In this document: positions 1-38,461 of the stretch, one piece after another | Numbering within the stretch: position 1 is the first letter of the stretch | How the letters are laid out: every line of letters begins with the position of its first letter | Source of the DNA: Amanita rubescens | Taxonomy: Eukaryota; Basidiomycota; Agaricomycetes; Agaricales; Amanitaceae | Direction: 5' to 3' | Assembly: GCA_015039365.1 (NCBI GenBank) | Contig: WION01000451.1 | Coordinates: 1-42,879, forward strand | Length of the DNA: 42,879 nucleotides | The notes under the pieces: generated by a model | The model's database searches: none | What the model was told of the DNA's origin: nothing | The model's input: only the letters and a program-made list of their open reading frames with translations | Translations under genes and position numbers: made by a program

Positions 1-1
1 T

Positions 2-2677
2 GTAATGTTCTTCGGATTAACGAATTCACCGGCGACGTTCCAAACGATGATGAATGATATGTTCAGGGAAGAGATAGCAGAAGGATGGGTGGTGATTTAT
101 ATGGACGATATACTCGTATTTTCCGATAACAAGGAAGCGCACCAACAACACGTTAAGCGAATCCTAGAAAAACTGGAACGCCATAAACTGTCGTTGAAAG
201 CGGATAAGTGTTGGTTCGATCAAGACGTAATCGAATTTTTGGGATTGATTATATCGCACGATTCAATACGTATGGATAAGGCAAAAGTAAAGGCAATACT
301 CGATTGGCCGCGACCTAAGAACAAAAGGGAATTACAACAATTCTTAGGTTTCGTCAACTTTTACTGACGATTTGTACGCGGATTCGCAAAAATAGCCAAA
401 GCCCTTACCAGGTTAACGGGAAAAGAGGAATGGATGTGGACGGTATTACAGGAGGAAGCGTTTCAAGGATTAAAGATGAGAATAGGAGAGGAAGTGGTGT
501 TGGCGATACCGGCAGATAAGGGACAATATCGAGTGGAAACGGATGCATCGGACTTCGCAATGGGAGCGGTACTATCTCAACAACAAGCGGACGGAACTTG
601 GAGACCGGTCGCGTTTATTTCAAAATCGTTAAACCTGACGGAAAGGAATTATGAAGTTTATGACAAGGAGTTGTTGGCGATAATGCACGCATTGTATGAA
701 TGGTCGCACTACCTAAAGGGAACAGAGGAAGTGATCGAGATCTTAACGGATCACCAAAATCTTACCTACTTCCGCAAATCCCAGAATATAAATCGACGAC
801 AAGCACGATGGGTATTAGATTTACAAGAGTACAATTTTACGTTGAAACATTGACCAGGCAAGACCAATACGAAGGCGGATGCCTTGTCTAGAAGAGCGGA
901 TTTTGATAAAGGGGAGACAGACAATGAAGGGACAATAGTATTGAAAGAAGAAATGTTTGTACGAACAATGAACGAGAACGGAGGATTGCAGGAAATAGAA
1001 AAACAGATAAAAAAGATAACAAAACGACAATGGGAGGAGAAAGTGAAAAAGGCGATAGAACAAAAAGAAGAAGGGTGGAAAACACAAGAGAACGGAATGG
1101 TAACATGGCGGGAAAGGGTGTACGTACCAGTAGTGAAAAAATTAAGAGAGGAAGTAATGGCGATACATCACTCTTGGGGACATTCGGGAGTTGATAAAAC
1201 AGTCGAGTTGATACTGCGAAATTATTGGTGGCCGGGATTGAGAAAAGATGTAGAGGGATATGTGAAAGGGTGTCGGATCTGTCAGACGGTTAAACCAGAC
1301 CGACAAAAGAGGGCAGCCCCGCTGAATCCAAATGAAGTTCCGCAAGGACCCTGGCAAATAATATCGGTGGATATGATTGGTCCTTTACCGGAATCAAAAG
1401 GATACGACGCGGTTTTAGTAGTGGTTGATAGGTTCACGAAGAAGGCCTATTTCCTACCTACCAATACGACGTTGACAAGTAAAGGAACGGCGGTATTATT
1501 CAGGGATCATGTGTTTAGGGAGCATGGAATACCGGAGAAGGTGATTAGCGATCGGGGACCTCAATTCGTGTCAAAGTTCATGAAGGAATTATACGAAGTG
1601 CTGAAAATAAAAGCAAATCCTTCGACGGCATACCACCCACAGACAGACGGTCAGACCGAAAGGGTGAATCAAGAGGTGAAAGAATTCCTCACCATGTTCG
1701 TAAATCATCAACAAGATAATTGGAGCGATTGGTTGGCAGTAGCGCAGTTCTGCCATAACGACCGAGTTCATTCGGCGACGGGATTTTCTCCTTTCTTCTT
1801 GAACAACGGGCGACACCCTCGGAAAGGATTAGAACCTGCAGTGGAGCGAAAGGTATTAGCGGTGGACGAGTGGATAGAACGATTGACAGAAGCGTGGGGA
1901 AAGGCAAAGGAAGGATTGAATAAGGCGGCGGAGGTGATGAAGAAACAGTATGATGTCAAGAAACAACCTTCTCGAGAGTATAAAGTAGGGGAGAAGGTAT
2001 ATCTTAGTACACAAAACCTCCCGACGTTACGAGCGACTAAGAAACTTGGAGGGAAATTTGTAGGGCCATATGTGGTTGCCGGAAAAGTAGGAGTATCGGC
2101 CTACCGTCTTAAAATACCGGCGTCATGGAAGATATACAACGTATTCAACGAAGTATGGCTGAAACCCTACTCGCCGGCTCAATTTCCCCAACAACAGAGA
2201 GAAGAGAAAGAATGGGATAAAAGACGAAAGGAGGAGGAAGATATGAAGAAGGATACGGAGTTTGAGGTGGAGGAAGTAATTGATAGTCGACAAAGAAAGA
2301 ATGGAGGACGGTTGGAGTATTTGGTGAAGTGGAAAGGGTATCCTCAGGAGGAAGCGACTTGGGAACCTTCGGATAATCTCGAGCACGCAAGTAAAAAGGT
2401 CGCCCAGTTTCATAAAAGGAAACCGAGTGCTCCGCGAGAGATACCAAAGGGAGAATCACTGAAGTTTCGGGCGTATCAAAATCACACGACGATGAACGCA
2501 CCCAAACGGTTATTTGGATGGGAAGACGGGAAATTCGACAAGGACTACTTGGAGAATATGCAACGAAGGTGGGCCAATTGGAGACGCGATCGAAGTGAGG
2601 TGGATTGGGAAGATGAAATGGACGAAGAAAGGGACTTAGATTCTCGGGACGAGAATCTTGAAGAGAAGGCGATGTAA
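2..2677 (+). pseudogene. Ty3/gypsy Pol polyprotein fragment with two in-frame stops
   Basis: One reading frame runs from the window edge to TAA at 2675-2677, broken only by TGA at 365-367 and TGA at 851-853. Domains in order: reverse transcriptase palm with the YMDD active-site box (about nt 101-112); RNase H (about nt 520-800, with ETDASDF and LTDHQN); integrase HHCC zinc finger (about nt 1150-1290); integrase core with catalytic D in SVDMIG, D in ISDRGPQF and E in QTERVNQ; and a C-terminal chromodomain (about nt 2259-2415, with YLVKWKGY and TWEPSDNL). Both stops replace a position where related Pol proteins commonly have a basic residue, and both fit a CGA to TGA change. No indels were seen. 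The protein as encoded cannot be made full length without readthrough, so this copy is probably dead but fairly recent. Confidence 0.92.
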
Positions 2678-2907
2678 CGACCTTGTTTGTAGGTATTAGG
2701 ATGGGAAGTTGATGAGTCGGATGGAAGCGAGGTTGAGTCAGCAATCCGCGGAATGGTGATGATGCAGCTACGGGAAAAGGTATATAAGGGTTGAGGGTTA
2801 GATACGTTCCTTAGTCTTACGATTGTTTCTGTTGTCCATAGAACCAATCTAGTTCTCAACCCCATATCCGAGTGTCTTAGTGGTTGTGTGTGGATAACCT
2901 CCTAACA
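2673..2907 (+). repeat. 3' LTR of the Ty3 element
   Basis: The LTR starts TGTAACGACC and ends CTCCTAACA, that is TG...CA termini, 235 bp. It overlaps the last codons of pol: the TAA stop is inside it. It contains a TATA-like box. Boundaries are inferred from the termini, the preceding purine tract and the abrupt start of unrelated coding sequence at 2908. The 5' LTR is not in the window for comparison. Confidence 0.8.
2780..2789 (+). promoter_or_regulatory. TATA-like box in the LTR
   Basis: TATATAAGGG lies in the middle of the LTR, in the usual place for the U3 core promoter. Since the LTR abuts a coding exon at 2908 in the same orientation, it could drive transcription into the micro-exon gene. 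That consequence is inference. Confidence 0.5.
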
Positions 2908-3514
2908 GAGAGAGCCAGGGAAATTGCTGAAATCACTTTTCAGAATGTCTATCTTCCTAAAGTTATGGATGTTAAATATCCTCCCAAGGCATATGTGCGA
3001 TTGGAAGGTGGGAATGATGAGGATTCCTTCCTGAAAAATGAGAGTAATGTTGTTTCATAGACATGGATTTACCAGAAAAGAATTGTGCTGAATTAACTCA
3101 GCAAACTGCTGATGTAATAGATGATGACAGCATACATCACCTGTTTGTTTCAACACAGATGAACAATCTGGACCTTTGTGTTAAATCTGCACTTCAGTGA
3201 GGGTTAAATTTTCAACATCACTTACTAACATTAACATTGTTTAGACATGTTCTGAAACATAAATATTTGACATGGGATAATATCATTATGATAGTTTTTT
3301 CAAAATTTCCACATTTCTGGGTATGCTTTTTTTGTCAAACTGCACATAGGAAAAATTAATGGCAATAGGCAGACAGGGAGGTAGGTGGCCTCACATGGAA
3401 TAATAAATACTTGCAAAAGTTCATCAGGAGGTAAGTAACACTCCATGCCTTCACATGACAACAAACTTAGCCATGCTTCAGATGTCTGGGAATAAACAAC
3501 TGAGTGAAACACAG
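2908..3514 (+). other. Leader exons of the micro-exon gene
   Basis: Exon 2908-3007 (100 nt, starts GAG AGA GCC in frame), intron 3008-3060 (53 nt), exon 3061-3196 (136 nt), intron 3197-3244 (48 nt, CTAAC branch-like site), exon 3245-3320 (76 nt), intron 3321-3368 (48 nt), exon 3369-3380 (12 nt), intron 3381-3427 (47 nt), GAG 3428-3430, intron 3431-3481 (51 nt), exon 3482-3514 (33 nt, MSGNKQLSETQ). Alternative acceptors exist at 3376 and 3356, but only the choice given keeps phase 0 with no stop. This fixes the frame in which the three-base exons are read. Confidence 0.6.
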
Positions 3515-6500
3515 GTTAGTTGTCACCATATTCTACTAGGTGGCAGGATCTGATGTTATTGATATCAGTGGGTAAGTGACATTGAACTAACATATGTATG
3601 TAGATCTAATTGCTATTGTCTCATGATGACAGTTTGTAAGTAATACTCCTTTTGTGATCAGCAGTCTTGTCCCATAATCTACAGGAAGTGAGTGACATCA
3701 CTCATTTTGATTCTTGGTAAATTATTTCATGGTGCATCATATGACCAACAGAAAGTGAGTTAATCTACTAATCATTATGAACAGACTTGTCAATCTAGTC
3801 TCTTGTGGACAGGGAGTGAGTGATACAACACTGCCTCACACCACATCTGACCTGCTTAAAGAAAGTAAGCAAATTGATCTTGTTGAAGTTTATCAGACAT
3901 AAATCAATGAACAATAGAAAGTTGGTGACTTACTGTTATCTGAAAGAGAATCTCAAGAAACCTCATTGGATTGATAACAGGAAGTAAAGGACATTTTCTT
4001 TCTACATATCTGCTTCTGAACATTACCAAACAACAGACAGTAAATAGGTCTCCTTTTCAAAGCCTCTTGACAAGCAATTGAAAAACAAACAGGATGTATG
4101 TGATAATTTGTGAGATATGAATTCATCATATGAAATACTAGAGGAAAGAGAGTCAGTGGCATCATTTTTTTTCTTTCTTCCTTACCCATTATGCTAATTC
4201 CATTCTAAAAGGAAGTGAGTAATGCTGGCCACTCTGCTGCAAGACAATTTGGACACATTCATTTGTTCTACAGATTGTGAGTGATATTGCAAGTTTCATA
4301 TGAAATCACATATTTCTGAATAAACATAGAAGGTTAGCAGTGTGTCATCCTGGTTTTGTTGTTCAAATGGTGACCTTATCAAAACTTTGCCTATGGCCTA
4401 CAGTATGTGAGTGACATTGCAATTTGCAAGTTGTTCCATGAATCTTTTACCTACATACATATTACTGATAGGATGTGAGCAACACTGAAGATTTTTGTGG
4501 AAGGCAGTCTCATCACATCTTTTCCTATGACTAACAGGGAGTGAGTGACATTATACATTGGCAAAAGGCAATCTCATCACATCTTTTCCTTTGACAAACA
4601 GGTTGTGAGTCACCAGTTTGTGAAAGGCAGTCTTATTACATCTTTTTCTATGACTAACAGGGAGTGGGTGACATTTGCACATTTTGTGAAAAGGCAATCT
4701 CATCACAACTTTTCCTATGACTAACAGGTTGTGAGTGGCATTGCACATTTTGTGGAAAAGCAGTCTCAACACAGCTTTTCCTATGACCAACAGGCTGTGA
4801 GTGACATTGCACATTTTGCAAAAGGCAGTCTCATAACATCTTTTCCTATGTCTAATACTAGGGAGTGAGTGATTTGCACATGTTTTGAGAGGCAGTCTCA
4901 CCACATATTTTTCTATAACTAACAGGGAGTGAGTGACATTGCACATCTTGTGAAAAGCCTCAGTCTCACACCAGTTTTCCTATGACCAACAGGCTGTGAG
5001 TGACATTGCACATTTTGTGAAAGGCAGTCTCATCACATCTTTCTATGACTAACAGGTTGTTAGTGACCTTGCACATTTGTGAAAGGCAGTCTCATCACAT
5101 GTTTTCCCCCAACAGCGAGTGAGTTGCATTCAAGTTGCACATTTTTTGAAAGACAATCTCATCACATCTTTTCCTATGACCAATAGAATGTGAGTGACAT
5201 TGCAAATGGGTGAGATGCAATCTCACCACCTGCTTTCCTATAACAAACAGGGAGTGAGCAACATGATTATACATTGTGTGAAAGGCAAACTTATTGCATC
5301 TTTTCCTATGACCAACAGAAAGTGAGTGACATTGCACATTTTGTGAAAGGCAGTCTCATTACATCTTTCCTATGACCAACAGCTTGTGAGTGACATTACA
5401 CAGTTTGTGAAAGGCAGTCTCATCACATCTTTTCCTATGACCAACAGCTTGTGAGTGACATTGTACATATATTTTGTGAAAGAGCAGTCTTGTGACATCT
5501 TTCCCAACAGAATGTGAGTGACACTGCACATTTTGTGAAAGGCTGTCACCTCATCACATCTTTTCCTACTATGGTCTGCAGATTGTGAGTATCCTTGTGA
5601 AAGGCAGTCTCATCACATCTTCCCTATGACCAACAGTCAGTGAGTGACATGGCACATTTTGTAAAAGGCAGTCTCATCATATCTTTTCCTATCACTAACA
5701 GTTTGTGAGTGTCCTTGCACATTTGTGAAATGCACCCTCATCAAATCTTTTCCTATGAAACAGTTTGTGAGCAACATTGCACATTTTGTGAAAGGCAGTC
5801 CCATCACATCTTTTCCTATGACCAACAGCTTGTGAGTGACATTGTCATTTTCAGTCTGATCATATGATCATATTCCTATTACAAACAGCTGGTAAGTGAA
5901 ATGGCACATTTTGTGAAAGGTAGTCTCATCACATCTTTTCCAACAGCGAGTGAGTGATATTGCACATACTGTGAAAGGCAGTCTCATCACATCTTTTCCT
6001 ATCACCAATAGTCTGTGGGTGACATTACACATTGTGTGAAAAAGTGGTCTCATCACATTTTTCCTATCACCAACAGCGGGTGAGTGACCTTTCACATTTT
6101 GTGAAAGGCAGTCTCATCACATCTTTTGCTATCACCACCAGCTTGTCAGTGACAATGCACATTTTGTGAAAGGTGTTCTCATCACTTCTTTTCCTATGTC
6201 CAACAGCAAGTGAGTAACAATACACATTTTGTGAAAGGCAATCTCATTACATCATTTCCTATGACCAACAGGAAGTGAGTATTGGCAATTGCCCATTTTG
6301 TAAATGGCACTCTCATCACATCTTTTCCTATGACAACAGTCTGTGAGTGACATTGCTCATTCCATGAAAGGCAGTCTTGTCACATCTTTTCCTATGTCCA
6401 GCAGGGAGTGAGTGACATTGCACATTTTGTGAAAGGCAGTCTCATCACATCTATTCCTATGTCCAATAGGGAGTGAGTGACATTGCAAATTTTGTGAAAG

Positions 6501-9500
6501 GCAGTCTCACCACATCTTTTCCTATCACCAAAAGGAAGTGAGTGGCTTGCATATTCTCTGAAAGGCATTCTCATCACATCTTTTCCTATCACTAACAGCA
6601 AGTAAGTGACAATGCACATTGTGTGAAAAGCAGTCTCATCATGTCTTTTCCTGTCACCAACAGGAAGTGAGTAATATTGTACATTTTGTGAAAGGCAGTC
6701 TCATCACATCTTTTACTATCACCAACAGGAAGTGAGTGACATTGCACATTTTGTGAAAGGCAGTCTCATCACACCTTTTGTTATTGCCACCAGCTTGTCA
6801 GTGACATTGCACATTTTATGAAGGGCAATCTCACCACATCTTTTCCTATGACCAACAGGATGTAAGTGACATTGCATTTTTGTGAATGGCAGTTTCATCA
6901 CATCTTTTCCTACATGTTACCAACAGTCTGTAAGCAACATTATGCACTTTGTGAAAGGCACTCTCCTCACACCTTTTCCTATTACCAACAGTTTGTGAGT
7001 GACATTGCACATTTTGTGAAAGGCACAGTCTCATCACATCTTTTCCTTTGACAAACAGCTTGTGAGTGACATTGTAAATTTTCTGACCAGCATTCTCAGC
7101 ATACCTCAATCCATCAATGTTTGATATATCATTACATGCTATGTATATCAGAAAGTGAGGATTTTACCATATCCTTTCTTTGTCTTCCTTTTACATTATT
7201 ATCATCATAGATTGTAAGATCCATTTCAGCTCCCACTTAGAGATCAGTAGGGGTAACCCTCGGGTTTTCGAGGCCAGACCCCTACCCCTACCCTCCTTTA
7301 CCCTTACCCTCATACAAGGGTATGAGGGTTTACCCTCAATAACCCGGGGGTACGCAAAGGGTACATAAGGGTATAAGGGTTAATAAATACCCCCGGGTTT
7401 ACACCCAGGGGTTTAATATTTGTGCGGACAATAACTATATTACGCTATATCATCCCATCCGTCGTCTACATTGACTTCTTCCTCTTCCTCTACTTGTTTT
7501 AAGCCCTTTATAGCATCATGTATTTGTTTTTCTTTGATAATCCCGGCCTTGATCCACTCATCAACACAAATGAGAGCACGAACCGTCTGGACACTCAGAC
7601 GGTTCCGCAAATATGACAGAATGACACGGCCACGTGAAAAGACGCACTCTACATCAACTGTTGTGGCTTAAGATGCATCAGATAAGCAAGAAACAGCAAG
7701 GAATTGAAGAAAGACATACATGGTACGGATAGATAATCAGATGCCATGGCCGCGAGCCTCGGATATGTGTCACGGTGCTCTCTCCACCATTTCAGAGGAT
7801 CGCCGGGCTTCCCTGCATCATTCTTGAGGTACTCGACACCACTGCTAAGATACAAGGCCAGCTCGTCGGCAGGCAATCTAGTCCTGGACGAGCCAGATAC
7901 CGGACTGGGCCCACTGAGTAAATCGTCGAACATGTTGGTTGTCTTACGTGTTTCCTCCATGCGAAGCTGTGGATTGTCGATCTAGAATAGATGTTGTAGT
8001 TAAGCGAACAGCAGATTACTAAAACAGTCATGCTGTACATACCATAAACTCGTTTTCGTCGGAGATGACCGACGCCAGCGGATCCAAGTACTTTGACAAT
8101 CCTGCTGTCACTAGCCTGCGCGCCTCGTCAATCCATTCCGTCTCCCACTGGAGCGACTGAAAGTACGAGAGTTTCAGCCGTGGATCCAAAACTGGTCGAG
8201 ATTTTGGTCAGTACGAGTTATGAGTCTTATGACTATATGATTCATATACATACCCATCGCGATGCGATACATTTCCGAGTGATCGGTCTTGGAGTAGTAT
8301 CGGTTAAGTGTTTTCTTTCCGATGCGCATAGCAGCACGGATAGCCGGCGAGTATTGTTGTGAGACCATTGATGTCGCAAGATGTTGGTCTAGATGATCCA
8401 TGGCTGGGATGACCGTAGTGAGGTTCGCCACCTTAGATCTTGAAAAAAATTCGGTGGCGTCGTTGAATATCTGTGTGGCGAGGGTGGTCAAAGAGGAACG
8501 GGGTTGGTTGTTACACTTACTTCGAGGATGTCGCGCAGTTGCTTGGCTAGCATCCATTCCCCTAGGTCCAGCTCGTAATCCCGTAGTCCCAATCCACGTT
8601 CGCCTGTGAGACTGTCAATGACAACCCGATAAGTAATAGCGAACTCGAGCATATGGTAAGTCGAGTTCCAGCGTGTGCGAACGTCCGTGGGCATATTTTT
8701 CTCTTTCAGTTGATGCACCTTGCAAAGTTCTCGCCATCGAGGCATAGATACGGTCGGTGAGTTCTTGAGCGCATAGGCTGTCTTACGGAGCTGCAGGAAG
8801 TAGCGTAAGCCTGGATTAGATACCCTTAGCCCAAGATAAGGCTGTGCGTGCCACGGTGGACCCACGTGGACACACAAACACCTACACACCTTTACTAACA
8901 TACGTCTCGCAGGCATGACATCCTGCGCCAACAAATGCAGATCTCTCTCAGTCATACCCCTCCGCTCATCAATCCAGCCGTCATTGTCATCTTGCTGACG
9001 GTCTTCAAGTGGCTCCTCCTCGATTTCGATTTGCATCTCTTCAGCAAGCCCCTCGGCGAGTCGACGAAGCTGGGTAAGCTGTGCGCGCGCATCGGAATCA
9101 TTATCATTCCCATCTGCTGACGTGGCTTCGGATCCAGCTGCTCCCATACCTTCAAGTTCTTTGACGGGAACATCAAACTGCGCAAGAACACTCTTTACGA
9201 CCAGATTGATCACATGTGCGAAGCAACGGACCCGTGTGGCATCACCACCAAATGATGCCACTTTATCAGCCAAATCGTCCACCAGTACATCATTATTACT
9301 AGCATTGTCGCATGTCAGAGACAATATCTGACACGAAAAAACAGTGAGTTACAGTTCCAATCGTCTGCACTCTGAGCCGCTTACCTTATCGCTAATCCCG
9401 AATGTATCTAGAACCTTTGCAAACTGGGCCGCGAGCTCTGCACCAGTATGCCTCCGGGCGACCTCGACAATATCCAGCAGCCATGAGTTCATGACCCCTT

Positions 9501-11833
9501 TGCTTGTATATTGGACGGTCACCGCCATGTATGCTCGCCGATTGGGAGATGTCCAACAATCCGTTCCGAAGTGCAACTTCCCTTCGTGTGTCTAATGGGT
9601 GCGTTTTTTTTATGAGGGTTAAATATGATGTCTGAACGTGATTCTGAACACAATGCACCTGTAGGTTTGCAGCTATCAGTTTCCGGCCAGCCAAGAACAC
9701 CTGTCGTACATCCTGGGCAACCGTCGTCGGTGCCGGTATGTACTGCTGCGGCCGCCCGGTTTTCATATTCAGGTGGTACCCAGGATCCTTGACTAACTCG
9801 AAGGGCCGTTTACTCTCGCACATCCAGCGGACGTGATTGGCGCGCACTTCATGATTACTTGCTTGCCTCGTGGAGTACGTAACCTTTCCTTGAGCTACAC
9901 GTTCAAATGCGGCCGTAATTGAACCGCTACGTCGCAGGTTAAGCTTGTCCTTCATCACGCTGCGTGCCACCCTCAAGTCCTTCACCTTCATTGCAGAAGA
10001 GATAGCGTCTTCACCAAAGCATTTGCTCGCATGAGCAATGAGATTGGAAGTTGATGATTTATCAGAAGTGCGCATGTTTCTTTTGACGATGTGGCCTCCT
10101 GTAGTGATGCACTCCTTGGCTGCGCATCGGAAGACTTGGAGCCGCTTGTCGTCTTCAACTTTGAACACGGGGGGCAGGTAGAATACGTAGACAGGTGATC
10201 TATATGTTTTATACAGCTCGTCTTTGGAGTTACTGATCAATTTCCATTTGCAGGGAGTGATGGTAGGCTCACCGAGAGTTTCCTGAGAGTCTACGAGTAC
10301 TTTCTTGCTGTTACCCCCGTTATCGGTTGCTTGATCTGGATTAGAGGTGTTGGGAGGGCCATCCAGAACCTCTAAATCGTAGTTATCATCTTCATCACTG
10401 TTATCGTTGGCATCGGTTGGGGTCCCAGGCCGCGTCACAGGTGTAGACATCTCAGAAGTTAATGTCTCGGATGTTGACTGCGCTTGTTGACGCTCGGTCT
10501 GGGCATCCTTCAACCTCTTGGTGAAGGCTTCAGTGCTCTGTTCGAACCTTGAGGTGGCCTTGCGCTTGCGGCCCTCCTTGGTTGTGTCCATGGCAGATGA
10601 ATATGTGTAAAATTTTCGTGTATTTTATTGTTATGGAAGTACACTATATATTTCTCCCAGGGGTAAGAAGGGTGACCACCTATAGGGAGGGGTTATGAAG
10701 GGTTGGCAAGGGCCAACCCTCACCCTCACCCTCTGCAAAACCCTTGGAAAAACCCTAGGGTTTCCTGTACCCTTACTGATCTCTACTCCCACTCCACCTT
10801 ATGTGATCACTTTTCTTGATTTCTAGGTGAGTGATGCTTATCCATGAGGTATTGAATTTCATATCAGTTTGCATGCTAGTTTGTAGGTCTGATGATACAC
10901 TGGATGTTTTACTCTATGTATCTCATAACTAGCATGAACTTTTCTCCATGTTTGGAGCCAAGCAAAGGCCTTTTGTTGTCATGGTATTTTTGTTCCTCCT
11001 TTTCTAGGTAGCACACAACTGATGGCATAATCCATTGCAACAAGCCTACTGATTGCCAGGTCTTAGTTTGTAAATTATTCCTTTCCATCCACTGTATTTC
11101 TGCTTAAACTTTCAAGCAATTATTATCATTGCCAAGCAATCCTTTTGGATCAATAAACCATTTCTTCCATCAGTTACAGAAGCCTTGGATCAATGCAAGC
11201 AAAAAGGCTATGTTCAGAAGCTGAAGAGTGAAATTACTTCTGATTTTATCCACTCTGGTCATTTGGCCACATTACTCTATAGGAAGGTGATTAACATTGA
11301 TGGTGGGTACTTTGTCTACTAGTCATACACTACTTATGAACAATTTATGGCAGGGTGAAACACCCAGCTATTCAGGTGATTTATTAGCTGCATTGCCTTT
11401 GCAAGATCATATTTATTTGTACATAGATCACTTCTCATATCCCTTTCTTTGGTTATCCATGCATTTGTTTCAAAATTTCTTTCTAATGTAGACATATATG
11501 TACATGGTTGTTGGCAATACATTCAGGGATAGACCAGTGAATGTGACTAAAGTGTCTATAGAATGGTGGCACCATCATAGGGGTGTTGGAGATGGTGTAA
11601 GAAATCAGACTCCGTTCGACGTACAGAGCAGAACTGGCATTCGGACGGCCAACGGACACCCTCCTTTTTACAATCACAGAATCCTCGACATCTGCACCTC
11701 GTCGCTGCTTAGTAGAAAGACTATGTTGAATGCACCGTTATGGGCTGGCGAGGGTCTGGAGTATCAGATTGGACAAAGAAGGGCGAAGAGGGCACAATTG
11801 TATCGTAGTCCCGTGGCCAGTTGTGGGAAGTGA
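2908..11833 (+). CDS. Unrecognised gene with a tandem array of one-codon micro-exons (5' end cut by Ty3 LTR; hAT in an intron)
   Basis: I do not recognise the protein. The exon model by eye is: 2908-3007, 3061-3196, 3245-3320, 3369-3380, GAG at 3428, 3482-3514, then 58 three-base exons from 3569 to 7213, TTT at 10880, 10933-10983, TTT at 11067, 11137-11286, 11354-11375, 11427-11451, and a last exon from 11527 that stays open to TGA at 11831-11833. All junctions are GT-AG. Exon lengths 100+136+76 return to phase 0 and every later exon up to 11286 is a multiple of three. The larger exons translate without stops into ordinary-looking mixed-composition sequence (for example LPKVMDVKYPPKAYVRLE, HELFSMFGAKQRPFVVM, YVQKLKSEITSDFIHSGHL). 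The gene is AT-rich compared with its neighbours. It has lost its 5' exons to the Ty3 insertion, so whether it is still expressed is unknown. The true 3' end is uncertain: base composition changes near 11603. Confidence 0.62.
3428..4474 (+). other. Diverged 5' block of single-codon exons
   Basis: Three-base exons in the form AG|NNN|GT: GAG 3428, TGG 3569, TTT 3633, GAA 3685, AAA 3752, GGA 3813, AAA 3862, AAA 3918, GAA 3981, ACA 4037, GAT 4093, AGA 4149, GAA 4212, ATT 4274, AAG 4330, TAT 4404, GAT 4472. The introns between them are 46-71 nt and mostly unlike one another in sequence, yet each keeps a GT donor (GTAAGT, GTGAGT, GTATGT, GTTAGC and similar) and an AG acceptor in register. Least certain is 4149, where AGG at 4144 and other AGs compete. 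Persistence of the pattern after the introns have diverged argues that splicing at these sites has been maintained. Confidence 0.58.
4475..7061 (+). repeat. Tandem array of about 40 near-identical intron units separated by 3-nt exons
   Basis: The repeat period is about 65 bp (55-71; most often exactly 65). The unit begins GTGAGTGACATTGCAC, has TTTTGTGAAAGGCAGT, then CTCATCACATC (branch-like, A about 25 nt from the acceptor), a TTTTCC tract, and ends TATGACCAACAG. Triplets between AG and GT: GGA 4538, GTT 4602, GGA 4661, GTT 4728, GCT 4794, GGA 4862, GGA 4926, GCT 4993, GTT 5056, CGA 5116, AAT 5187, GGA 5251, AAA 5319, CTT 5383, CTT 5448, AAT 5511, ATT 5582, TCA 5637, TTT 5702, TTT 5764, CTT 5829, CTG 5889, CGA 5947, TCT 6012, CGG 6077, CTT 6142, CAA 6207, GAA 6272, TCT 6340, GGA 6405, GGA 6470, GAA 6535, CAA 6599, GAA 6664, GAA 6729, CTT 6794, GAT 6859, TCT 6927, TTT 6992, CTT 7059. 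Donors vary only within splice-competent forms (GTGAGT, GTAAGT, GTGAGC, GTGGGT, GTTAGT, GTCAGT). Confidence 0.9.
7062..7237 (+). other. Last diverged micro-exon units before the hAT insertion
   Basis: After the core the introns diverge again: intron 7062-7151 (90 nt), AAA at 7152-7154 followed by GTGAGG, intron 7155-7210, ATT at 7211-7213 followed by GTAAGA. The intron starting at 7214 is interrupted by the hAT element. Removing the element and one copy of the target duplication leaves a 57-nt intron ending TTTCTAG at 10826. Confidence 0.6.
7230..7237 (+). repeat. hAT target-site duplication, left copy
   Basis: CTCCCACT at 7230-7237 is repeated exactly at 10786-10793. Eight-base duplications are characteristic of hAT insertion. 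Confidence 0.95.
7238..7430. repeat. hAT left terminal/subterminal repeat region
   Basis: The terminal inverted repeat is followed by many short ACCCT, TACCC and AGGGTA motifs in both orientations up to about 7415. The right end (about 10655-10785) has the same motif density. The motifs resemble telomere-type C-rich repeats in composition but are irregular in spacing. Confidence 0.7.
7440..10591 (-). CDS. hAT family transposase (8 exons)
   Basis: Exons on the minus strand by eye: 10591-9659, 9591-9385, 9327-8890, 8790-8521, 8470-8254, 8192-8043, 7981-7720, 7666-7440, all GT-AG and in phase. The N-terminus is basic then acidic, followed by a BED-like finger (FRCAAKEC ... LIAHASKC, about residues 130-190). 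The catalytic core has D in FGTDCWTSPNRRAYMAV, D in LTCDNASNND and the hAT RCFAHVINL (CxxH) motif, with an acidic insert after it. The C-terminal hAT dimerisation domain includes LKWWREH, YPRLAAMASDYLSVP and VECVFSRGRVILSYLRNRL. It would cut and paste the element in the nucleus. No stop or frameshift was found. The intron between exons 3 and 4 could alternatively end at 8842, but the acceptor used here gives the expected joined LRKTAYALKNSPT sequence. Confidence 0.93.
10786..10793 (+). repeat. hAT target-site duplication, right copy
   Basis: CTCCCACT, identical to 7230-7237. Confidence 0.95.
10827..11602 (+). other. Downstream exons of the micro-exon gene
   Basis: Intron 10827-10879 begins GTGAGT directly after the TTTCTAG acceptor at 10826. 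TTT 10880-10882, intron 10883-10932 (50 nt), exon 10933-10983 (51 nt, 17 codons), intron 10984-11066 (83 nt, with an internal TTTTCTAG|GTAGCA at 11007/11008), TTT 11067-11069, intron 11070-11136 (67 nt), exon 11137-11286 (150 nt, 50 codons, no stop), intron 11287-11353, exon 11354-11375, intron 11376-11426, exon 11427-11451, intron 11452-11526, exon from 11527 (DRPVNVTKVSIEWWHHH). The last three exons are less certain than the earlier ones. Reading remains open into GC-richer sequence after about 11603. Confidence 0.5.
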
Positions 11834-13062: not shown

Positions 13063-15472
13063 AATTGTAAAGGTGATTTCATTTGAGCAAGAAGTAGTTA
13101 ATACAGGTAGGCATTGTGACACAAGTCACATAGTGGGGTAATGCGCATTCATGCGCATGTTAATGTGTTTAGTAGTATTTTTCTAGATAGAAAAGAGGGA
13201 AACGAATAGAGGAAAAGGAAATCATGGTACATCGAGAGGAAGATCAGTAAACGAAAATATAGTAGGATTTTCTTTGATGATTTTAGTAAGTGATTCATTG
13301 TTTTTTGGATCGTTAGTCCATTCGCGTAAAGAAGGAAAAGAAAAGTGATACCTGCATCGTGTTAAGATGTGTTCGCGTGATTGGTAAGTTCCAGGTTGGC
13401 ACGTTGGGCAATCTGTCGATTTATCCGGGAACCTCCGTTGGTTGTGTTCTCCTGTTGGTGCGTGACCGGTTACCGCACACGTAAGTCTCGTCATCCTCTC
13501 TCTATCGTCATCTGCCATCTCAAAGAAGAATCTCTTTCTCTTCGTCGAAGAGCCTAGCATGGGTAGGTAGCGCTTTCGGTTGTATTTGACAGCGAGCCAT
13601 TGTCTGCCTCTGTAAGCCTGAGAGCTGGCTCTAATTCTCCAAAGGTTATTCATGCGGCGTCTTTGTTCATCGGTGAAGTGCTGTTTCAATATCAAAGGTC
13701 CCGTCGTCACTGGGGGCGCGCGAGAGGCGAGTGAGTCTGCCTTTTCATTGCCTTCAATGCCTGAATGTGACGGGCAGTGCGCGAAGTGGAGGGACCGAAT
13801 GGTGCTGTCCGCAAAGAGGTCCAGTAGTAGGAGATTTATTCTGACGGACTCCATTTGATTGGTGTGTGCATCCATGTTTAGTGCGCCCTGAATGACGCTT
13901 TTGTTGTCAATGATGAACCAAAGGTTGGGTCTGATTCGCTCTTTGTTTGCAGCCGCCCATGCAACCGCCATCCCTAGAGCTACTATTTCTGCATCATATG
14001 AAGAGCCTGCTGGGCAGTCGGCTGTGTCCGCAATCTCAAATAATCCGTGATCAGACAGGAGGAAGGCAGCTCGTCCTCGTCTTTTGTCTTTCCAGTAGCC
14101 ACCATCAGTGTAGATGACAGTGGCGTCATCATCGCTCTCAACCACCCTGAGCCATGTTCGATACTCTCTCATCCACCCGCCAAACTCCTCGCTATCCTTC
14201 TTTGGAGCGTCCATCTTTGTGCGTTCAATGCTTTTTCCGTAGACGTCTTCGACCCTGTGTCCTGGTCTGTTGACAGGGTGATAGGTGTCGAATTGCTCTT
14301 TGATCTGTCCTCTAAAAGCCCTGAGTCTAGTGTTAGGGTTATCGCTCGGTAGGTGTCGTGGGCGTCTCTTAGGTCTTATCCTCCTCGACGAGGGTTTAAC
14401 CAGATCTGATGACCAGGCGACTTTAAGTAGGTGGTTGTCCGGGAGTGTGTGAATCCTGGCGGCGTAACCGTAAATGCATAGATTGCACCACACATCCAGG
14501 GGGGGGATGTGAGCGATCATTTCTAATGCGCCCGACGGGGAGCCTCTAAAAGCACCCGTTATCCATCTCAGAGCAAAGTTATGAACCCTCCTCATCTCCA
14601 TCAGCTGTTTCTTTACTCCTCTGCCATCCTCCGCATACCAAAGTGCGAGACCGTATGTAAGCACCGGGAGAGTGATTGCTTTGTAAGCCAACGTGCGGTT
14701 CCTGGGACTTAATCCTCGACGCGAATTTCCTAACATTCCGCAGGCTCTAATAGTACTGAAGGCTTTGTTAGTATAGTATTTGACGTGATGATGAAATTTA
14801 AGAAAAGGATCGAAAAAGAAACCCAAATATCTCCACACGCCGATCGGTTTGATCGTAAACTCCCTTCCACCCACTTCGTAAACCAGGTTGGGCTGTTGTT
14901 TGTGTTTAAAGGTTCTTGGCCCTTTACTGAGGTCGTATGCAGCGAAGTGCATGAGTTCCGTTTTGGTTTGTTCAATTTGTATACCTATTTTGGCAAATAC
15001 GTCCGTTAGCCGTTCGATAGCCGCTTTTAAGGTTAGCATGTTGTGATTCATTGTTGGGGACGACGCGCAAAGTGTGCCGTCGTCGACAAAAAAGAGACAG
15101 TTAGTATTCAACTCAAGATCCCACTGGAAGTGAGATCTGAGGACGAGAGAGATATATAGCGCAGAGAGGACCGGCGATAAGCAGTCACCCTGTGGGGTGC
15201 CTAGGTCTGCGTCGAAAATGTGGGAAGTTTGTTTTCCCCATTTGTAAGCGGTGGTCCTGTCTTTAAAGAAAGAGGCAATGAGATTAGTAATTTTGTGACA
15301 AAACCCCTGTTTCGTTAGCAGTGTGACCATTACATCATGATTGATTGAAGGGAAAAACTGCGCAATATCTACCGCCAGAACCGAAGTGAAGAGGCCTCTG
15401 TCTCTCGCCTCTGAAACCATGTCCATCAAAACTATCCCCACATCCACCGTCGAGTGTTTTTGAATGCCTCCG
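13043..15472 (-). mobile_element. 5'-truncated non-LTR retrotransposon (LINE)
   Basis: The element is bounded by a 14-bp target duplication. It ends in a 20-nt T run at 13043-13062 (poly(A) on the minus strand) and starts abruptly within the reverse transcriptase domain at 15472, so ORF1, the endonuclease and the 5' part of RT are missing. 5' truncation with a poly(A) tail and a target duplication of 10-20 bp is typical of target-primed reverse transcription. This copy cannot move by itself. Confidence 0.94.
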
Positions 15473-15606
15473 CTGGGCTTGTCTTCGACAGACCCGCCGA
15501 GTAACCACCGGTCCACCCTACTATAGCTGAATCCAACAACATGCTTCCACGAAATGGAGCAACGATGGTTGTCGTATGACCCACACGAGACACGCTCTCG
15601 CTCCAT
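13222..15606 (-). pseudogene. LINE reverse transcriptase-RNase H ORF fragment, fused to about 44 host-coded residues
   Basis: The open frame is 794 codons from ATG 15606 to stop 13222. Only 15472-13222 belongs to the element; the first ~44 residues read through the target duplication into flanking DNA. RT landmarks: GGIQKHSTVD near the cut, AVDIAQFFPSINH (motif A), GTPQGDCLSPVLSALY (motif B), and FVDDGTL as the active-site FVDD box. RNase H: VIYTDGGYW, SYDAEIVALGMAVAW, IIDNKSVIQGA and HCPSHSGIEGNEKADSLA. A C-terminal C-x2-C-x7-H-x4-C knuckle (CPTCQPGTYQSREHILTRC) follows. The frame is uninterrupted, so the insertion is young. The ATG lies in host sequence and is probably fortuitous. Confidence 0.9.
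15473..15486 (+). repeat. LINE target-site duplication, 5' side copy
   Basis: CTGGGCTTGTCTTC, identical to 13029-13042. It marks the 5' truncation point of the element at 15472. Confidence 0.9.
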
Positions 15607-25606: not shown

Positions 25607-26423
25607 TCGACGGCCTTGGCAGGCTCGTGTTCGAGAGAATGGAGCAGGATGCTTTGAACGGAGTTGAAGAGATGGTCGTAGAGGGTAAGACGAGGAGCGA
25701 CCATGGATGTAGGCTTGCAACAAGGGGCGGAAGAGTAGAAGCCTGAGGAGGACAAGCGCATCTAAATGCGATCAGGGGGCGACTAGGCGGAGATCGGGGA
25801 AGCGACTTATGACTTCCGTGTCTGCCGTTATTGCAAACTGGGCAAGGGCGAGCCGACAAGGCTCTGGAGAGTGTGCGAGGTGGTCATTGAGGCGTTTTCG
25901 GTGTTATGCAGGAAGCAGACATTGCTTCTGGCGGAGGTCGTTGTCGCCGAGAATGAGATTTGAGGAGATTTGGGCGGGGTCTGCGGAACGAGAGCCTCCA
26001 TATGTGGCACGGTCGATTATTGTTCTCATCCTCGGCAAATGCATGAGTGTCGTCGTGCATCACGTCAAAAGAGACCGAATTTATTGGTCTGACTACGGGA
26101 GACTAGGCAAATGCGAGCTGGAGTCAGTTTCGGGGTCTAACATAATTTGAGATAACTTAGACGATGCAACTAGGATCATCCAGTTAATCGAGGTCGATAA
26201 TCTCAACGTCTCTTTGTCGTCGTTGCGATGCGACAGGATCCAGAGAATTACTCATGGCGGACACTGGCCTGTCGACCATGGCGGCCATTTTCAAGTGGGC
26301 TCCCACCCTGAGTGTCGCTTGTAAAAATAACTAACCGGTCTTGGGGTCCCGGGTCTCGTGGTACCTAGTGGACTCGGTCATAGGCGCTCATTTCGTTCGG
26401 CCTCGAAACCTTCAACCAGTCCA
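25607..26423. other. Spacer between NLR relic and HMG-box gene
   Basis: No recognisable coding sequence. Short open frames on both strands lack family motifs. The HMG-box frame is open back to 26358, but the ATG at 26424 is preferred as start. Confidence 0.35.
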
Positions 26424-27944
26424 ATGTCTGTCAGTGGCGACACCATGGACATTTTACTGGATCCATATCCATCCACAACAGAAAACGTCCTTCACTCCGA
26501 GCGACACGACGATCCAGGCCCTCAATCGAGTTCTGACGAAGGAAGCATCGCTTCGTATGTGGACTCCTCGAGTAACGAGGCTGAATATGACGGTGCGCTA
26601 TCCAGCCAAACGCTGAATGCACACGGCACACCGAAGCGACCTACGAATGCTTTCATGATTTCTGCGCGTAAACGTAGGCCTCAAGCCTTCTCCGCCGAAA
26701 AACAAGCAATGCGGGATCCATATCCATTCACAACCGAAAACGTCGATCACCGCGCCCTTCAATCCGAGCGACACGACGAGCCAGACTCTCAATCGGATTC
26801 AGAGGAAGGAAATATCGCTCCGTATGCGGACTCCTCGAGTAACGAGGCTGAATATGACGGTACTACTGCCATTGACGATTCAGATGCGCTATTCAGCCAA
26901 ACGCTGCATGCACACGGCACACCGAAGCGACCTATGAATGCTTTCATAATTTCTGCGCGTAAACGTAGGCCTCAAGCCTTCTCCGCTGAAAAACAAGCAA
27001 TGCGGGATCCATATCCATCCACAACCGAAAACGTCGATCACAACTCCGAGCGACACGACGATCCAGGCTCTCAATCGGGTTCCGACGAAGGAAGTATCGC
27101 TCCGTATGTGGATCCCTCCAATTACGAGGTTGAATATGACGGTACTACGTCACCTAGTGCCATTGCAACCTTAGGCGACTCCGATGCGCTATCCAGCCAA
27201 ACGCTGAATGCAGATGGCACACCGAAGCGACCTATGAATGCTTTCATGATTTTTGCGCGTGAACGTAGGCCTCAAGTCTCCGCTGAAAACCAAGCAATGC
27301 GCACAGGTGAAATTAGCAAGATTCTCAGCCACGAGTGGGCAGTCATGCCTCCGGTAAGTTTTTAAATCTTCGTCATCGCCTTAGCATAGCCGTTGACGGA
27401 TTGACAGGGACAAAAGCAGGACTATCTCGACCGCGCAAAGCAGTTGAAGGAGATTTTCAACAGCAAATATCCCGATTATATCTACAGGCGACGACCGATG
27501 AATTATCGGCTAAATAAATCGAAACCCAGGCACGACATGACAGGACTAGTAGACCAAGGCATCACCCCTGAAGCAGTGGAATACTACGGGAGCGCTCATC
27601 CTGAGGGTGATGACCGACAATATGAAGGCGTTGCAAACATCGCCCATTCGTCTCGCATACAGCACGATTACATTGGGCCAGCGGCGCAGGCAAAATCAAA
27701 CCCTTACCCTTACGTGACTCCCGATTCACCCCATCGACACGAGAGTTCTCATGACCCTCGCATGCATTTTATCAGCCAGCAAGGCGAACGGCTAATAAAC
27801 AGTTTCCATGCAAAGAGTTCCGGCTACGATTCCTCGGCTCAGTCCCGGCAAGCGCAGATTTATCCCGCAGACGCTGGTGAAACGCAAGGAAGATGGGAGC
27901 CAGAGACGGTGCGTTATTGTTGTCGACGTAATTCATCTTTTTAA
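26424..27944 (+). CDS. HMG-box DNA-binding protein with duplicated partial boxes
   Basis: Two exons, 26424-27353 and 27408-27944 (488 aa), joined in phase 0 inside the HMG box. Residues ~68-96, ~165-193 and ~265 onward each begin GTPKRP.NAFM(I) followed by AR(K/E)RRPQ, the first strand and helix of a MATA/SOX-type HMG box. Only the third continues into a full box (EISKILSHEWAVMPP, then GQKQDYLDRAKQLKEIF). Each copy is preceded by an acidic Ser-rich linker with DPYPSTTENV and SSNEAEYDG, so the repeated unit is linker plus half box (255-291 bp in DNA). HMG-box proteins of this type are nuclear, bend DNA and regulate mating or development in fungi; the target here is unknown. The first two half boxes lack helices 2-3 and should not fold as HMG domains alone. 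An ATG at 26445 is an alternative start; the 3' end may have one more intron at about 27909. Confidence 0.85.
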
Positions 27945-28046: not shown

Positions 28047-31000
28047 ATGGTCACCGGAAACAAAGAACATTTCAAGTTTGTGGCAGGCGCTGCCCTACAC
28101 GCCCCTACTGAACGTCAATGGGCGGAAATGGTTTTTCAGGAGTCATTATTGGCTATTTCCAGCTGCGAGAAGAAGCATGATCAAGTGAAATCTGCAGTGC
28201 GAGGCATACCAACAGCAGGAAAATGGTTCCTCGAAAGACCTGAATACCGCACATGGAAAGCGGGAATGTCATCCTCCTTTCCACTTTTGTTGACGGGTAT
28301 CCGTGAGTAATATCAGCCTCTCATGCACTGTTTATGTTCACAAGTTGCGGTAACGACCAGCGGGCTCGGGTAAGACAGTTATCAGGTATGAACACTTGTA
28401 TTTGCTCCGGCGAACAACCTTATCTAATTACCACTTCCTTGCGCAGCTCAGTTGTGATAGACGACCTACGAGGAAGTGAACGACCTGTAAATGCGGTGAT
28501 CTTTCTGTACTGTGAATCTCCAGATCACACCAAGTACGACACCAGGTCTTTCCTTGGCAATCTCTTTGGGCAACTTCTGCTTCAACTTCCCCAATCCAAG
28601 TACTCTGCGGTCGACCGTTTAGTCAGATTATACAACGCATTTCAACCCTTTGACTTTGAAGCTCTAATTATAAATATCTCTCGCGATTATGAAAAGGTTT
28701 TTGTCGTTATCGATTCATTAGATGAATGTAAAGACCCCGTCGATCTTCTGGAAAGCCTCCCAGACAACTGGCATGTATTCATCACATCTTTGAGAGAATA
28801 CCCTGTCAGGAATGCATATGCAAATTTCAATCGAGTTGTAATCAACTCTATGGATACTATAGCCGATATACGACGATTCGTTCGGTTGGAGGTCAAAAAA
28901 ATCAAGGTTCAAAACCCTAAGTTGGCAAGATGTATCGTAGATAAGTTGACTTTAGATGCCCATGGAAGGTGGGTCCTGGTTTCTACCTCTAATCGCATAT
29001 CCTCACTCTAGACTTCACAGCTTTTTTTGGCCAATTTGTCATATGCGACAGCTTCGGCGACTGTGGACAGAGTATCAGATCCATGAATCTCTCAAATGGC
29101 TACCGCAAGGCATAGATGATCAATTTCCCAGAGCTTTGCGGTTAGAGAGTGCAAACCAGGTGTGGGGAAGAACCAGACACGCCATACGTCTAGTTCGACT
29201 TGCGGTGAGACCCATGACGATCCCGGAGTTGGCAGAGGCATTGGGAACTGCCGAATCAAACGGGCAACAGACATCCGGTCTTTACGCTGCACGCATGGAT
29301 ATGGATATGCTCATTGACGGTTGTTCCGACCTTATTCGTATCCCAGCCGATAAGCAAAGACAACCTGATTTTGTTGTACCTGCTCCCTCTCTCAAGGTTC
29401 CATTGTTTGGAGGCGCCGCACACAACGACGTTGCCAAGCTATGCTTAACCTATCTCAAATCTAAACTAGCGGATTATTCACCAGCAGTTCTTGCACGGAC
29501 CTCCGATCATCCTTTTATGAGGTATGCTGTCACTGGATGCCTCGATCATATTCGCGCCTCCGGAACGGACTCATTGGCAACAGAGTTTCGAGCTTTTTTT
29601 GCTCCAGGCTCGAAAACATTCGAAGGGTGGTGCCGTCTGTACAAGAAGCAACTTGGAAAGTTCGCAACTTCTGGCGTTGGGAAGCACATTGAACGTCTGG
29701 ATTGCGCCCATCTTGCGGTCTGGTTTGACCTTCCCATGATATTGCGCAAGTTCAGTGCCGCCGAATTGGCGGCAAAAGATTACAGAGGGTTGAACACGCT
29801 ACACGTCGCAGTTGGAATACCTAGCTCCCTTGCCGCGATTGATTGTCTACTAGATAAAGTAGACATCAACAGTCTCAGCAGATACGGCGACACCGCGCTT
29901 CACATTGCTGTTTCGCACTCGAAGAATCCGGAGATGGTTATTCTACGATTTTGGCGGGCAGATGTAAATGTACATGCAAAAGACAGGGCAGGACGAACGG
30001 CTTTGCATCTATCGATTCTGAATCCTGAACGTGCTTTTTTATGCATAGCTACGCTGCTTCAGAGCGGAGCTAACGTCAATGCTCAAGATGCTTCCTTACG
30101 CACGCCCTTGCATTTAGCTGCTGCGGCACGTAACTATGTGTCCAACAGGCGCTTCACGGGACCTGAATGCCAAGGATCAACTGCAGGGGATTACGAGAAA
30201 ATAATACGTCTCTTATTGGATAATGACGCAGATATTGAATCACAGGACGAGGCAGGCAATACCCCTCTTCACATCGCTTCCGAAAATGTGAATGCCTCTG
30301 TCTCAAAGCTATTGCTCGAAAGAGGGGCATCAGTTATTTCTCGTAACAAGCACGGTAGTATGGCAATCCACTTGGCTGTTGGGAATGTGGTACCGGATTC
30401 ATCCATGATCCGATTTCGTCTTCAGGAAATTCGTGATCAAGAGCTCACCGTTCATGCGCTTCTCGATCGCGGTGCAGACGTTAATGCCACGATTCAAAAT
30501 AGCCAAACACCATTACACCTCGCGGCACGTTCTCGTTGCGAGCTCTGTATTTTCAATGCCCTTCTACAAAAGGGCGCAGCAGTAACCGCAAATGATGACG
30601 ATGGCGTTACAGCGTTGCATCTGGCGGTAAAGATGGCCCCAATATCGAATGTAAACGAACCTGAAGGTCATTGGCGTATTTCTTGGATTCGCATGCAGAC
30701 AGATCATCGAGTTTTTGATCGAGAACGGCTGCGACCCGAGCACGTTACATGGCATAGTCGAGAAAGTCTGCCAATTTTTAGAGAGCCATTACCCCGACAT
30801 TGTCACGACTCGAGATGATGAACTGAAGCCGGATCATCCCTCCGTAACTTGGTTTAAAGATGTTGTGATATTGCTTTGTTCCAAGGGAGCCACTGTTAGT
30901 TCAAAGACCAACCGAGGTTATGATATCCTACGCTTTGCAATGGAATCATGGGCTTCTTGGATTCTCGAGAATCATCAGATTCTTGCAGCAAGACGACGTT

Positions 31001-31149
31001 CAGATGATATGTCGCTCATAGGAACATACTTAGCGTGGTCGGACATTGCTAAGATAATACCCGCAGCTGATAGACAATACACTTGTACACATGGTTCTTT
31101 TTCAATAATCATATATATGCGCATAGCGTTCGTTGGGAATGCCTACTGA
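28047..31149 (+). CDS. NACHT-ankyrin NLR-like protein 1 (one frameshift near the 3' end)
   Basis: Exons 28047-28302, 28361-28385, 28447-28968, and 29012 to stop 30818. The 25-nt exon carries most of Walker A; splicing gives LLTGIPGSGKTVISSVVIDDLR. Walker B is VFVVIDSLDECKD, followed by a winged-helix-like region (SFFWPICHMRQLRRLW ... MTIPELAEAL). About 8-10 ankyrin repeats come after residue ~500 (TALHIAVSHS, TALHLSILNP, TPLHLAAAAR, NTPLHIASEN, TPLHLAARSR). Near 30693 one extra base shifts the frame; 30715-31149 continues the family C-terminus (CQFLESHYPDIV, LLCSKGATV, ESWASWILENH). As encoded, the protein ends about 45 residues after the shift with its ankyrins intact. NACHT-ankyrin proteins in fungi are presumed signalling NTPases for non-self or stress recognition. 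Its 3' end abuts the next copy tail to tail. Confidence 0.85.
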
Positions 31150-34350: not shown

Positions 34351-34555
34351 GGGTATTGATCAGAGTTGCGCCACGTGCCAACGGCCTTAATAATATATAT
34401 TAATAACACGTGGATGTGACTGCTTCAAGTTTGACATTTTTTTACAACTTGAAATAAGGTGTGTTTTTACCCATTCTCTGACGACTCTTTATGCAAAAAG
34501 TCCCTGAAGGAGTCCCTAATTTTGTTGAGGATGCAGATCGCTGGTCTTCAACAGA
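34351..34555. other. Divergent spacer between NLR copies 2 and 3
   Basis: 205 bp, AT-rich, between the 5' ends of two oppositely oriented copies. It would hold both promoters. TAATATATATTAATAA near 34388-34403 is the only TATA-like sequence seen. Confidence 0.45.
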
Positions 34556-38400: not shown

Positions 38401-38461
38401 GTATATGGATTTGATCAAGCTTATGTATCTCACTAGCGTCTCTGCTCGAACTAGAATTGAA

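Follow-up and report, generated by a model that had tools for sequence, protein, structure and literature searches.

Introduction

Exons of one codon or less can be spliced between ordinary introns. Known cases include an isolated 3-nt exon in Drosophila homothorax (PMC7392893) and, in plant APC11, a constitutive exon of 1 nt (PMC4674806; PMC8831610); such microexons are isolated, and a gene has one or a few of them. We analyze a locus of the basidiomycete Amanita rubescens, on a contig of 42,879 nt (WION01000451.1; this whole stretch is referred to as the window), in which ~60 such exons of one P-loop GTPase gene would form a whole segment of the protein. From the sequence, we consider it very probable that this array consists of single-codon exons that are spliced, residue by residue, into a conserved motif followed by a hypervariable segment.

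Several gene families with many small exons invite comparison. The aphid bicycle genes are, like the array, a fast-evolving family with many very small exons; they have ~17 exons on average, include a megacycle gene with >100 microexons, and have internal exons that are almost all in phase 2, whereas the array exons are in phase 0 and so are not of the bicycle type (PMC9168663). In schistosome micro-exon genes, too, fast-evolving proteins are encoded by runs of small symmetric exons (PMC4350168). In fungi, a microexon of Trichoderma Xlr2 has been shown to matter, in a report that describes research on fungal microexons as relatively limited (PMC11121469); Xlr2 concerns one regulated exon as described there, in contrast to the run of dozens considered here. 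What further separates the array from the bicycle genes is that its exons are exactly one codon long, sit on a GTPase and vary codon by codon. Bicycle exons are reportedly longer than one codon, and schistosome micro-exons hold several codons and are not known to include one-residue units like those of the array. No gene with dozens of consecutive single-codon exons appears among the titles and abstract openings listed from the open PMC literature on microexon arrays, 3-nt or single-codon exons, fungal microexons, GTPase expansion in Amanita or Agaricomycetes, and A. rubescens introns, a corpus that mostly leaves subscription papers and preprints outside. The architecture is therefore probably new among described genes, and its chemistry would probably be that of ordinary splicing.

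A phased array of AG/GT-framed triplets

The plus strand of the window carries 59 triplets of the form AG|NNN|GT, from 3428 (GAG) to 7213 (ATT), and a 60th 3-nt unit at 10880. The count of 59 agrees with the original prediction, as does a commonest triplet-to-triplet gap of 62 nt (16/58); the predicted range of 46-90 nt holds for 57 of the 58 gaps, and the first gap instead measures 138 nt and encloses a 33-nt exon. If internal exons of ≤30 nt that have both an acceptor and a donor to themselves are counted as microexons, the window model has 60 of them, all three-nucleotide units flanked by AG and GT, besides the 12-nt and 25-nt exons described below. The best chain of such units scored 311 (58 units), compared with a maximum score of 9.0 and a maximum of 5 units in 200 dinucleotide shuffles. 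Twelve background stretches, including window positions 14001-42879 on both strands and the locus itself on its reverse strand, gave no more than 2 units each. Sites of the form [CT]AG-N(L)-GTRAG in 3400-7240 number 45 at L=3 and 0 or 1 at every other L from 0 to 15, and these counts rule out another exon length as the rhythm.

The chain connects in phase 0 to ordinary exons on either side, giving one open frame as had been proposed. In what follows, W denotes the window copy, and C13, C117, C1, C79 and similar handles denote other contigs of the A. rubescens genome (75.7 Mb). Entering the array on the plus strand, the exon model contains the remainder of GTPase exon 6 (2907..3007; 98% identical to the sister copy C13), the ordinary exons 7 (3061..3196; MDLPEKNCAELTQQTADVIDDDSIHHLFVSTQMNNLDLCVKSALQ) and 8 (3245..3320; ending in FPHFW), both with AG/GT kept in 19/19 copies, a 12-nt exon ADRE (3369..3380), the single-codon exon GAG (E; 3428..3430), which is also the first unit of the chain, and the 33-nt exon MSGNKQLSETQ (3482..3514). 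At the places of the 12-nt and 33-nt exons a contig-encoded protein, P0033, reads VGRD and MANKQLSEAQ. The next 17 single-codon exons (3569..4540, +; starts at 3569, 3633, 3685, 3752, 3813, 3862, 3918, 3981, 4037, 4093, 4149, 4212, 4274, 4330, 4404, 4472 and 4538) have mutually unrelated introns and spell a conserved motif resembling WFEQGKKETDREIKYDG, namely W F E K G K K E T D R E I K Y D G. Behind this motif come the hypervariable codons, up to ~70 of them depending on the copy; in the window they are 38 single-codon exons (4602..6994, +; VGVAGGAVRNGKLLNISFFLLRSRLQESGGEQEELDSF) spaced by near-repeat introns of ~62 nt. Three single-codon exons L K I (7059..7213, +; starts at 7059, 7152 and 7211), alike in several copies, end the array.

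On leaving the array, the plus-strand model continues with the single-codon exon TTT (F; 10880..10882), for which C117 has CTA (L) and the related protein P0049 has Leu, in support of the prediction for this triplet. A 51-nt exon (10933..10983; HELFSMFGAKQRPFVVM) matches ELFSVFG of P0049 and was placed by alignment in 8/19 copies. It is followed by a 25-nt exon, PTDCQVLV (11045..11069), which matches TACQVLA of P0049 and has AG/GT in all of the 15/19 copies where it could be placed, a set outside which the window copy falls, its tail lying beyond the searched range. The TTT at 11067, predicted to be an exon of its own, is the end of this 25-nt exon. The last exon (IIIIAKQSFWINKPFLPS...YFVY stop) runs from 11117 to 11322 instead of from 11137 to 11286.

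The 3' half of the array coincides with a 65-bp tandem repeat at 4493-7086 (40 copies, 76% matches; Tandem Repeats Finder), which, taken alone, would invite the reading that a minisatellite whose unit by chance contains CAG...GTGAGT lies inside one long intron and is spliced out whole or is untranscribed. The 5' half is not a tandem repeat, its intron-intron identity of 0.553 being near the 0.531 of shuffled C117 introns, and the AG|NNN|GT rhythm persists there, as it does in the paralogues C117 and C1, despite unrelated introns. Similarity between units fails to explain a pattern of this kind. Given also the depletion of stop codons, the confinement of variation to exactly three columns and the array residues encoded by contigs of relatives, all described below, a noncoding minisatellite is extremely improbable; removal of the whole array as one intron is disfavored by the contig proteins, which retain array residues.

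Coding signal, codon choice and constraint

The counts of stops, head codons, entropy, unit pairs and codon-intron linkage leave aside W, C254, C239 and C495, which are near-duplicate or mis-chained. In the 15 arrays so compared only 5/663 codons are stops, all TGA, whereas shuffling first bases within arrays gives an expectation of 46.5 +/- 4.5 and a minimum of 33 in 2000 runs. Column entropy across 357 units, each 65 nt long, is 1.61, 1.80 and 1.33 bits at the three codon positions, compared with a mean of 0.34 and a maximum of 0.66 for the other 62 columns, among which the GT and AG columns have zero entropy by unit selection. In the head of the array (15 codons compared in 15 copies) base differences amount to 8.9% in codons and 15.0% in intron interiors, the latter with many gaps; 1101/1575 intron pairs are unequal in length, and the codon exons are 3 nt by chain construction.

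Near-identical copies allow a closer comparison. Between W and C13a, 53 paired units show 0 amino acid changes and 1 synonymous base (1/159), against 74/2750 intron bases (2.7%); over all 59 units of this pair, splice sites contrast with the intron interior at a Fisher p of 0.0001. Differences between C79 and C239 fall on 2/183 codon bases and 1/3183 intron bases, and those between C311 and C495 on 2/108 and 47/1839; the pairs C41-C726 (3 paired units) and C13a-C311 (9) were not used.

Array codons are also chosen differently from those of ordinary exons in the C13 copy. Codons ending in A or T make up 92% in arrays versus 66% in normal exons, codons containing AG or GT 6.4% versus 21.3%, and the commonest codon of its amino acid is used in 508/572 array codons versus 155/284 in normal exons. 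Such shunning of AG and GT within codons is what splice-site fidelity would ask; it does not account for the dearth of codons ending in C.

The host gene and its family

The sequence flanking the array on both sides encodes a P-loop GTPase. The sister copy C13 (loci L010 and L011), 96% identical to the window, yields a full model of 73 exons, 60 of them exactly 3 nt, with 72 introns of 46-128 nt; its 1395 coding bases run intact from ATG to stop and encode 464 residues. The C13 model contains GRANAGKT, which fits the P-loop pattern GxxxxGK[ST], and the family MMR_HSR1 matches 20/25 family members with E values up to 0.01, but the C13 query (20.3 bits) and P0049 (19.3 bits) score below its cut-off of 21.9 bits. 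A predicted structure of P0049, made from a 25-sequence alignment, has a mean predicted local distance difference test score (pLDDT) of 76.8. Searched with Foldseek, it gave BDLP and IRG proteins (bacterial dynamin-like and immunity-related GTPases) as best PDB matches (E ~2e-5), with TM-scores (template modeling scores) of ≤0.47 among the 50 matches listed. Like the IRG and dynamin-like GTPases (Irga6, GM4951, BDLP), to which these matches are weak, the model places a helical part after its P-loop GTPase domain; in contrast to them, a hypervariable segment, predicted to be disordered, separates the GTPase part from the C-terminal helices. Residues 294-358, which lie at this place, have pLDDT below 50 and are likely to be disordered.

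Window region 2907-4300 occurs at ≥40 places in the genome including itself, the 39 others being 81-98% identical (the best 40 of 206 candidates). Nineteen loci, the window included, were analyzed. The array opens with TGG TTT in 18/19 loci and with CTG TTT in C190, and the motif WFEQGKKETDREIKYDG or a variant of it follows this opening across the 19 loci. The codons chained after the motif are almost wholly different between most loci, and the array ends in LKI or a near variant in several of them. First and last exons aside, the ordinary internal exons have AG/GT wherever they could be placed in all but four cases, namely GC in C79 exon 9, C239 exon 9 and C278 exon 6, and CC in C495 exon 9. 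Neither the size of the family nor the hypervariability of most of the array had been part of the prediction, nor had the interruption of the window copy by transposons.

Most of the related proteins listed are from Amanita (A. rubescens, A. brunnescens, A. polypyramis and A. muscaria), and an FPHFW-like motif is present in 47 of the 126 proteins among the matches listed. Thirty-one of these 47 come from sources other than JGI contigs, mostly annotated genomes; 3 of them extend ≥40 residues past FPHFW, and 0/3 hold the segment. Among the JGI-contig proteins listed with the motif, 11/16 extend that far. These counts suggest that gene predictors may miss such segments. Two more distant contig-encoded members, P0114 and P0120, have low-complexity stretches (HHREEEEYHHHHHYLEYEEY and RAREELREELERNNEEEKEEKE) at about the same place in the protein, so that the origin of the variable segment may predate Amanita.

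One further site near the 3' end of the gene deserves description. At 10825..10831 (+) the sequence AG|GTGAG has no exon between acceptor and donor, and may represent a zero-nucleotide exon or recursive splice site. A strict pattern located the next long exon in six loci; in five of them (W, C13a, C278, C209 and C117, but not C79) an AG|GTRAR precedes that exon by 107-115 nt, the background rate being 0.04 per 400 nt. Besides window 10825-10831, exonless positions of this kind were noted at ~9104 in L010 and at ~5400 in C117 (L038 and L039 joined).

Divergent paralogues and contiguous copies in relatives

Two divergent paralogues carry comparable arrays. C117 (L038 and L039) has 48 chained 3-nt units with a mean intron identity of 0.563, versus 0.531 for shuffled introns, and C1:30880-32380 (L040) has 20 single-codon exons in a row, reading WFESADNAAAKERQYYDDGV, with an intron identity of 0.575 versus 0.548 for shuffled introns. 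Two introns of the C1 array have the GC donor GCAAGT, at L040 374-379 (after TGG) and 1443-1448 (after GGG).

Residues of such arrays are encoded contiguously in JGI contigs from relatives. P0046 (478 residues) reads WFESADDAAGKEREYYDDGI without interruption, 16/20 of these residues being identical to those of the C1 array; over a wider stretch it reads KHNEIDWFESADDAAGKEREYYDDGI, where the genomic exons of C1 give KHNEVD, then W, F, E and on. The intronless contig of P0046, at 1486 nt, has no room for the introns. The motif of the window itself is contiguous in P0002 (WFEKGKKESDREIEYDG; 1446-nt contig) and in P0033 (WFEHGKKDTDKQIVYDG; 1903-nt contig). If these contigs are retrocopies they still record splicing; only a stretch contained in one ordinary exon of another species would be no such record. 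Within the A. rubescens genome a contiguous or retrocopied motif was not found among the best candidates scored (best E 0.86, covering only the first 26 residues), and a protein search confined to the motif region returned 1 candidate, of which 0 were scored. Comparison with orthologous proteins had been put forward as a check of the array, and the intronless contigs provide an approximation to it, since P0002, P0033 and P0046 encode the same residues contiguously. Taken with the open frame and the motif in 19 copies, they support in large part the proposal that most of a protein domain is assembled one residue per exon.

The contigs also bear on whether the triplets are optional, that is, included or skipped in combinations to give many protein variants by alternative splicing. 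All 3-nt exons of the C13 model are in phase 0, so any subset of them would preserve the frame, and short exons are easily skipped. However, the residues of the motif are all represented in P0046, P0002 and P0033, and we consider combinatorial skipping of this kind unlikely.

Codon-wise variation of the array

The hypervariable segment changes within a conserved protein. P0049 and P0053 have 302/321 residues in common before the segment (94%) and 87/92 after it (95%), but only 11/29 aligned residues within it, where their lengths are 48 and 31. Within arrays, 3387 unit pairs with introns ≤3.3% different have codons that differ at 57% of bases, and 1320/1652 unit pairs with identical introns have different codons; these pairs come mostly from C79, C13b and C769. 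Linkage between codon and intron was assessed after also leaving out three arrays with <20 usable units. The chance of sharing a codon rises slightly among the 5% most similar introns, in 8/12 arrays for downstream and 9/12 for upstream introns; in C79, for example, it goes from 0.158 to 0.182 for downstream introns. In 9/12 arrays neighboring codons match more often than codons paired at random. Such a weak association indicates that codon and intron evolve largely apart, and linked duplication of codon and intron as the main force of array growth finds little support, given how slight the rise is. This could come about if introns underwent short-tract conversion while selection preserved the codons, if entire codon cassettes were exchanged, or if codons were changed in a targeted way. 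The sequences suggest that the array diversifies codon by codon. A diversity-generating retroelement, which would combine a template repeat with a dedicated reverse transcriptase and make adenine-biased changes, was considered solely on the ground that variation is confined to the codon columns.

A burst of introner-like elements would offer another account, in which near-identical introns invaded a once contiguous coding stretch and so came to stand between different codons. The many identical introns beside different codons, and the merely slight rise in codon identity where introns are most alike, are what such a burst would produce. Introns are alike within recent arrays and unrelated in old ones; in the divergent paralogues nearly every codon of the stretch is already followed by an intron, these introns being unrelated in sequence, and insertion at exactly every third base has no known cause. 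On balance an introner-like burst appears quite improbable.

Evidence against the proposed splicing

Several observations weigh against our reading of the array as single-codon exons spliced residue by residue. Splicing in A. rubescens would follow by extension from the contigs of relatives, for which an RNA and a genomic origin are both possible, and the tails of P0002 and P0033 past YDG have no match to any array. C117 is irregular: 10/47 gaps are ≥100 nt, in which any units to be seen measure 2, 7 or 12 nt, and one chained unit is TGA, so that its full frame is not established. The five TGA codons of the 15 arrays fall in three arrays, three of them in C13b. In the head of the array the excess conservation of codon bases is just moderate, and over all 59 units the codon-versus-intron comparison of W and C13a is not significant alone (Fisher p 0.088). 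C769 and C254, the latter partly mis-chained, show the opposite trend, with differences at 11/147 codon bases versus 7/2570 intron bases, a pattern that argues against uniform purifying selection and for codon replacement. Recombination does not fully account for the weak link between codon and intron identity. Finally, the window copy itself is probably dead, cut by a retrotransposon and carrying a hAT-like insertion, while sister C13 is intact.

Purifying selection as the sole force on codons was considered and rejected, fitting W-C13a and failing for C769-C254. Within C117 (L038 and L039 joined), AG-...-GTRAG units of 7, 2, 12 and 2 nt were noted at ~2540, 4144, 4258 and 5163.

The damage to the window copy is of two kinds. 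The end of a long terminal repeat (LTR) retrotransposon (1..2906, +), with integrase and chromodomain in an open reading frame (ORF) at 884-2677, truncates the 5' part of the gene, so that exons 1-5 and the 5' part of exon 6 are missing; its boundary at 2906 was placed by eye, where similarity to C13 starts and LTR-like sequence stops. A DNA transposon (7238..10785, -), which we take to be hAT-like, lies inside the intron after the array, with a 12-bp terminal inverted repeat (TAGAGATCAGTA) and an 8-bp target duplication (CTCCCACT) at 7230-7237 and 10786-10793. The element is missing from the sister copy C13, and the two of its ORFs that were tested gave no Pfam match.

These insertions, the arrays with TGA and the near-identical duplicate loci would suit the view that the architecture is real and ancient, yet the multi-copy subfamily of the window is mostly a dead relic, no longer spliced codon by codon. 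Against this stand the intact 464-residue frame of C13, the lack of amino acid change between W and C13a in the face of 2.7% intron change, and the AG/GT of nearly all placeable ordinary exons. We therefore regard a relic subfamily as highly unlikely.

Proposed mechanism and significance

If the array is spliced as single-codon exons, each intron of 46-90 nt would use its own donor (mostly GTRAGT) and YAG acceptor, and the spliceosome is predicted to pair these sites across the intron. Under such intron definition the length of the exon would not matter for recognition. Two spliceosomes hardly fit one 3-nt exon, and on general knowledge of splicing neighboring introns are presumably removed one after another.

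The array is likely to act as a codon-cassette device, in which whole codons would be gained, lost or exchanged as near-identical introns recombine. Exchanges of this type would leave frame and splice sites untouched, and the predicted disordered segment would change one residue at a time. A more tentative extension, possible but in our judgment rather doubtful, is that the cassettes form a diversity generator in which single codons are changed independently of the intron, by targeted mutation or short-tract recombination, to give an open-ended repertoire of GTPase recognition segments, for example for distinguishing self from nonself, that could be rewritten by single residues with the reading frame always preserved. 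A role of the segment in recognition or nonself response is speculative; the idea comes from the weak structural likeness to immune GTPases together with the copy number and the hypervariability.

If the single-codon exons are real, the gene would be among the most extreme split genes, with ~1/8 of the protein (60 of 464 residues) built one residue per exon, and with the same pattern at 19 loci of one genome and in two of its more distant paralogues. Such a gene would test the minimum exon size and the run length that a spliceosome handles under intron definition, and its introns would serve as spacers through which recombination could edit a protein one codon at a time.

Other features of the window

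Beyond the GTPase copy, the minus strand holds a long ORF at 13222-15606 with matches to reverse transcriptase and RNase H, presumably a non-LTR element by its content. Within an HMG-box ORF at 26358-27365, 2.4 tandem copies of a 291-bp unit (26594-27301) repeat a stretch like PKRPMNAFMISARKRRPQAFSAEKQAMR. Positions 28334-42791 hold a cluster of ORFs on both strands; the two that were tested (28334-30815) match NPHP3_N and ankyrin repeats, and the others are similar by translation, so that the GTPase copy shares its contig with a NOD-like receptor (NLR)-like cluster.

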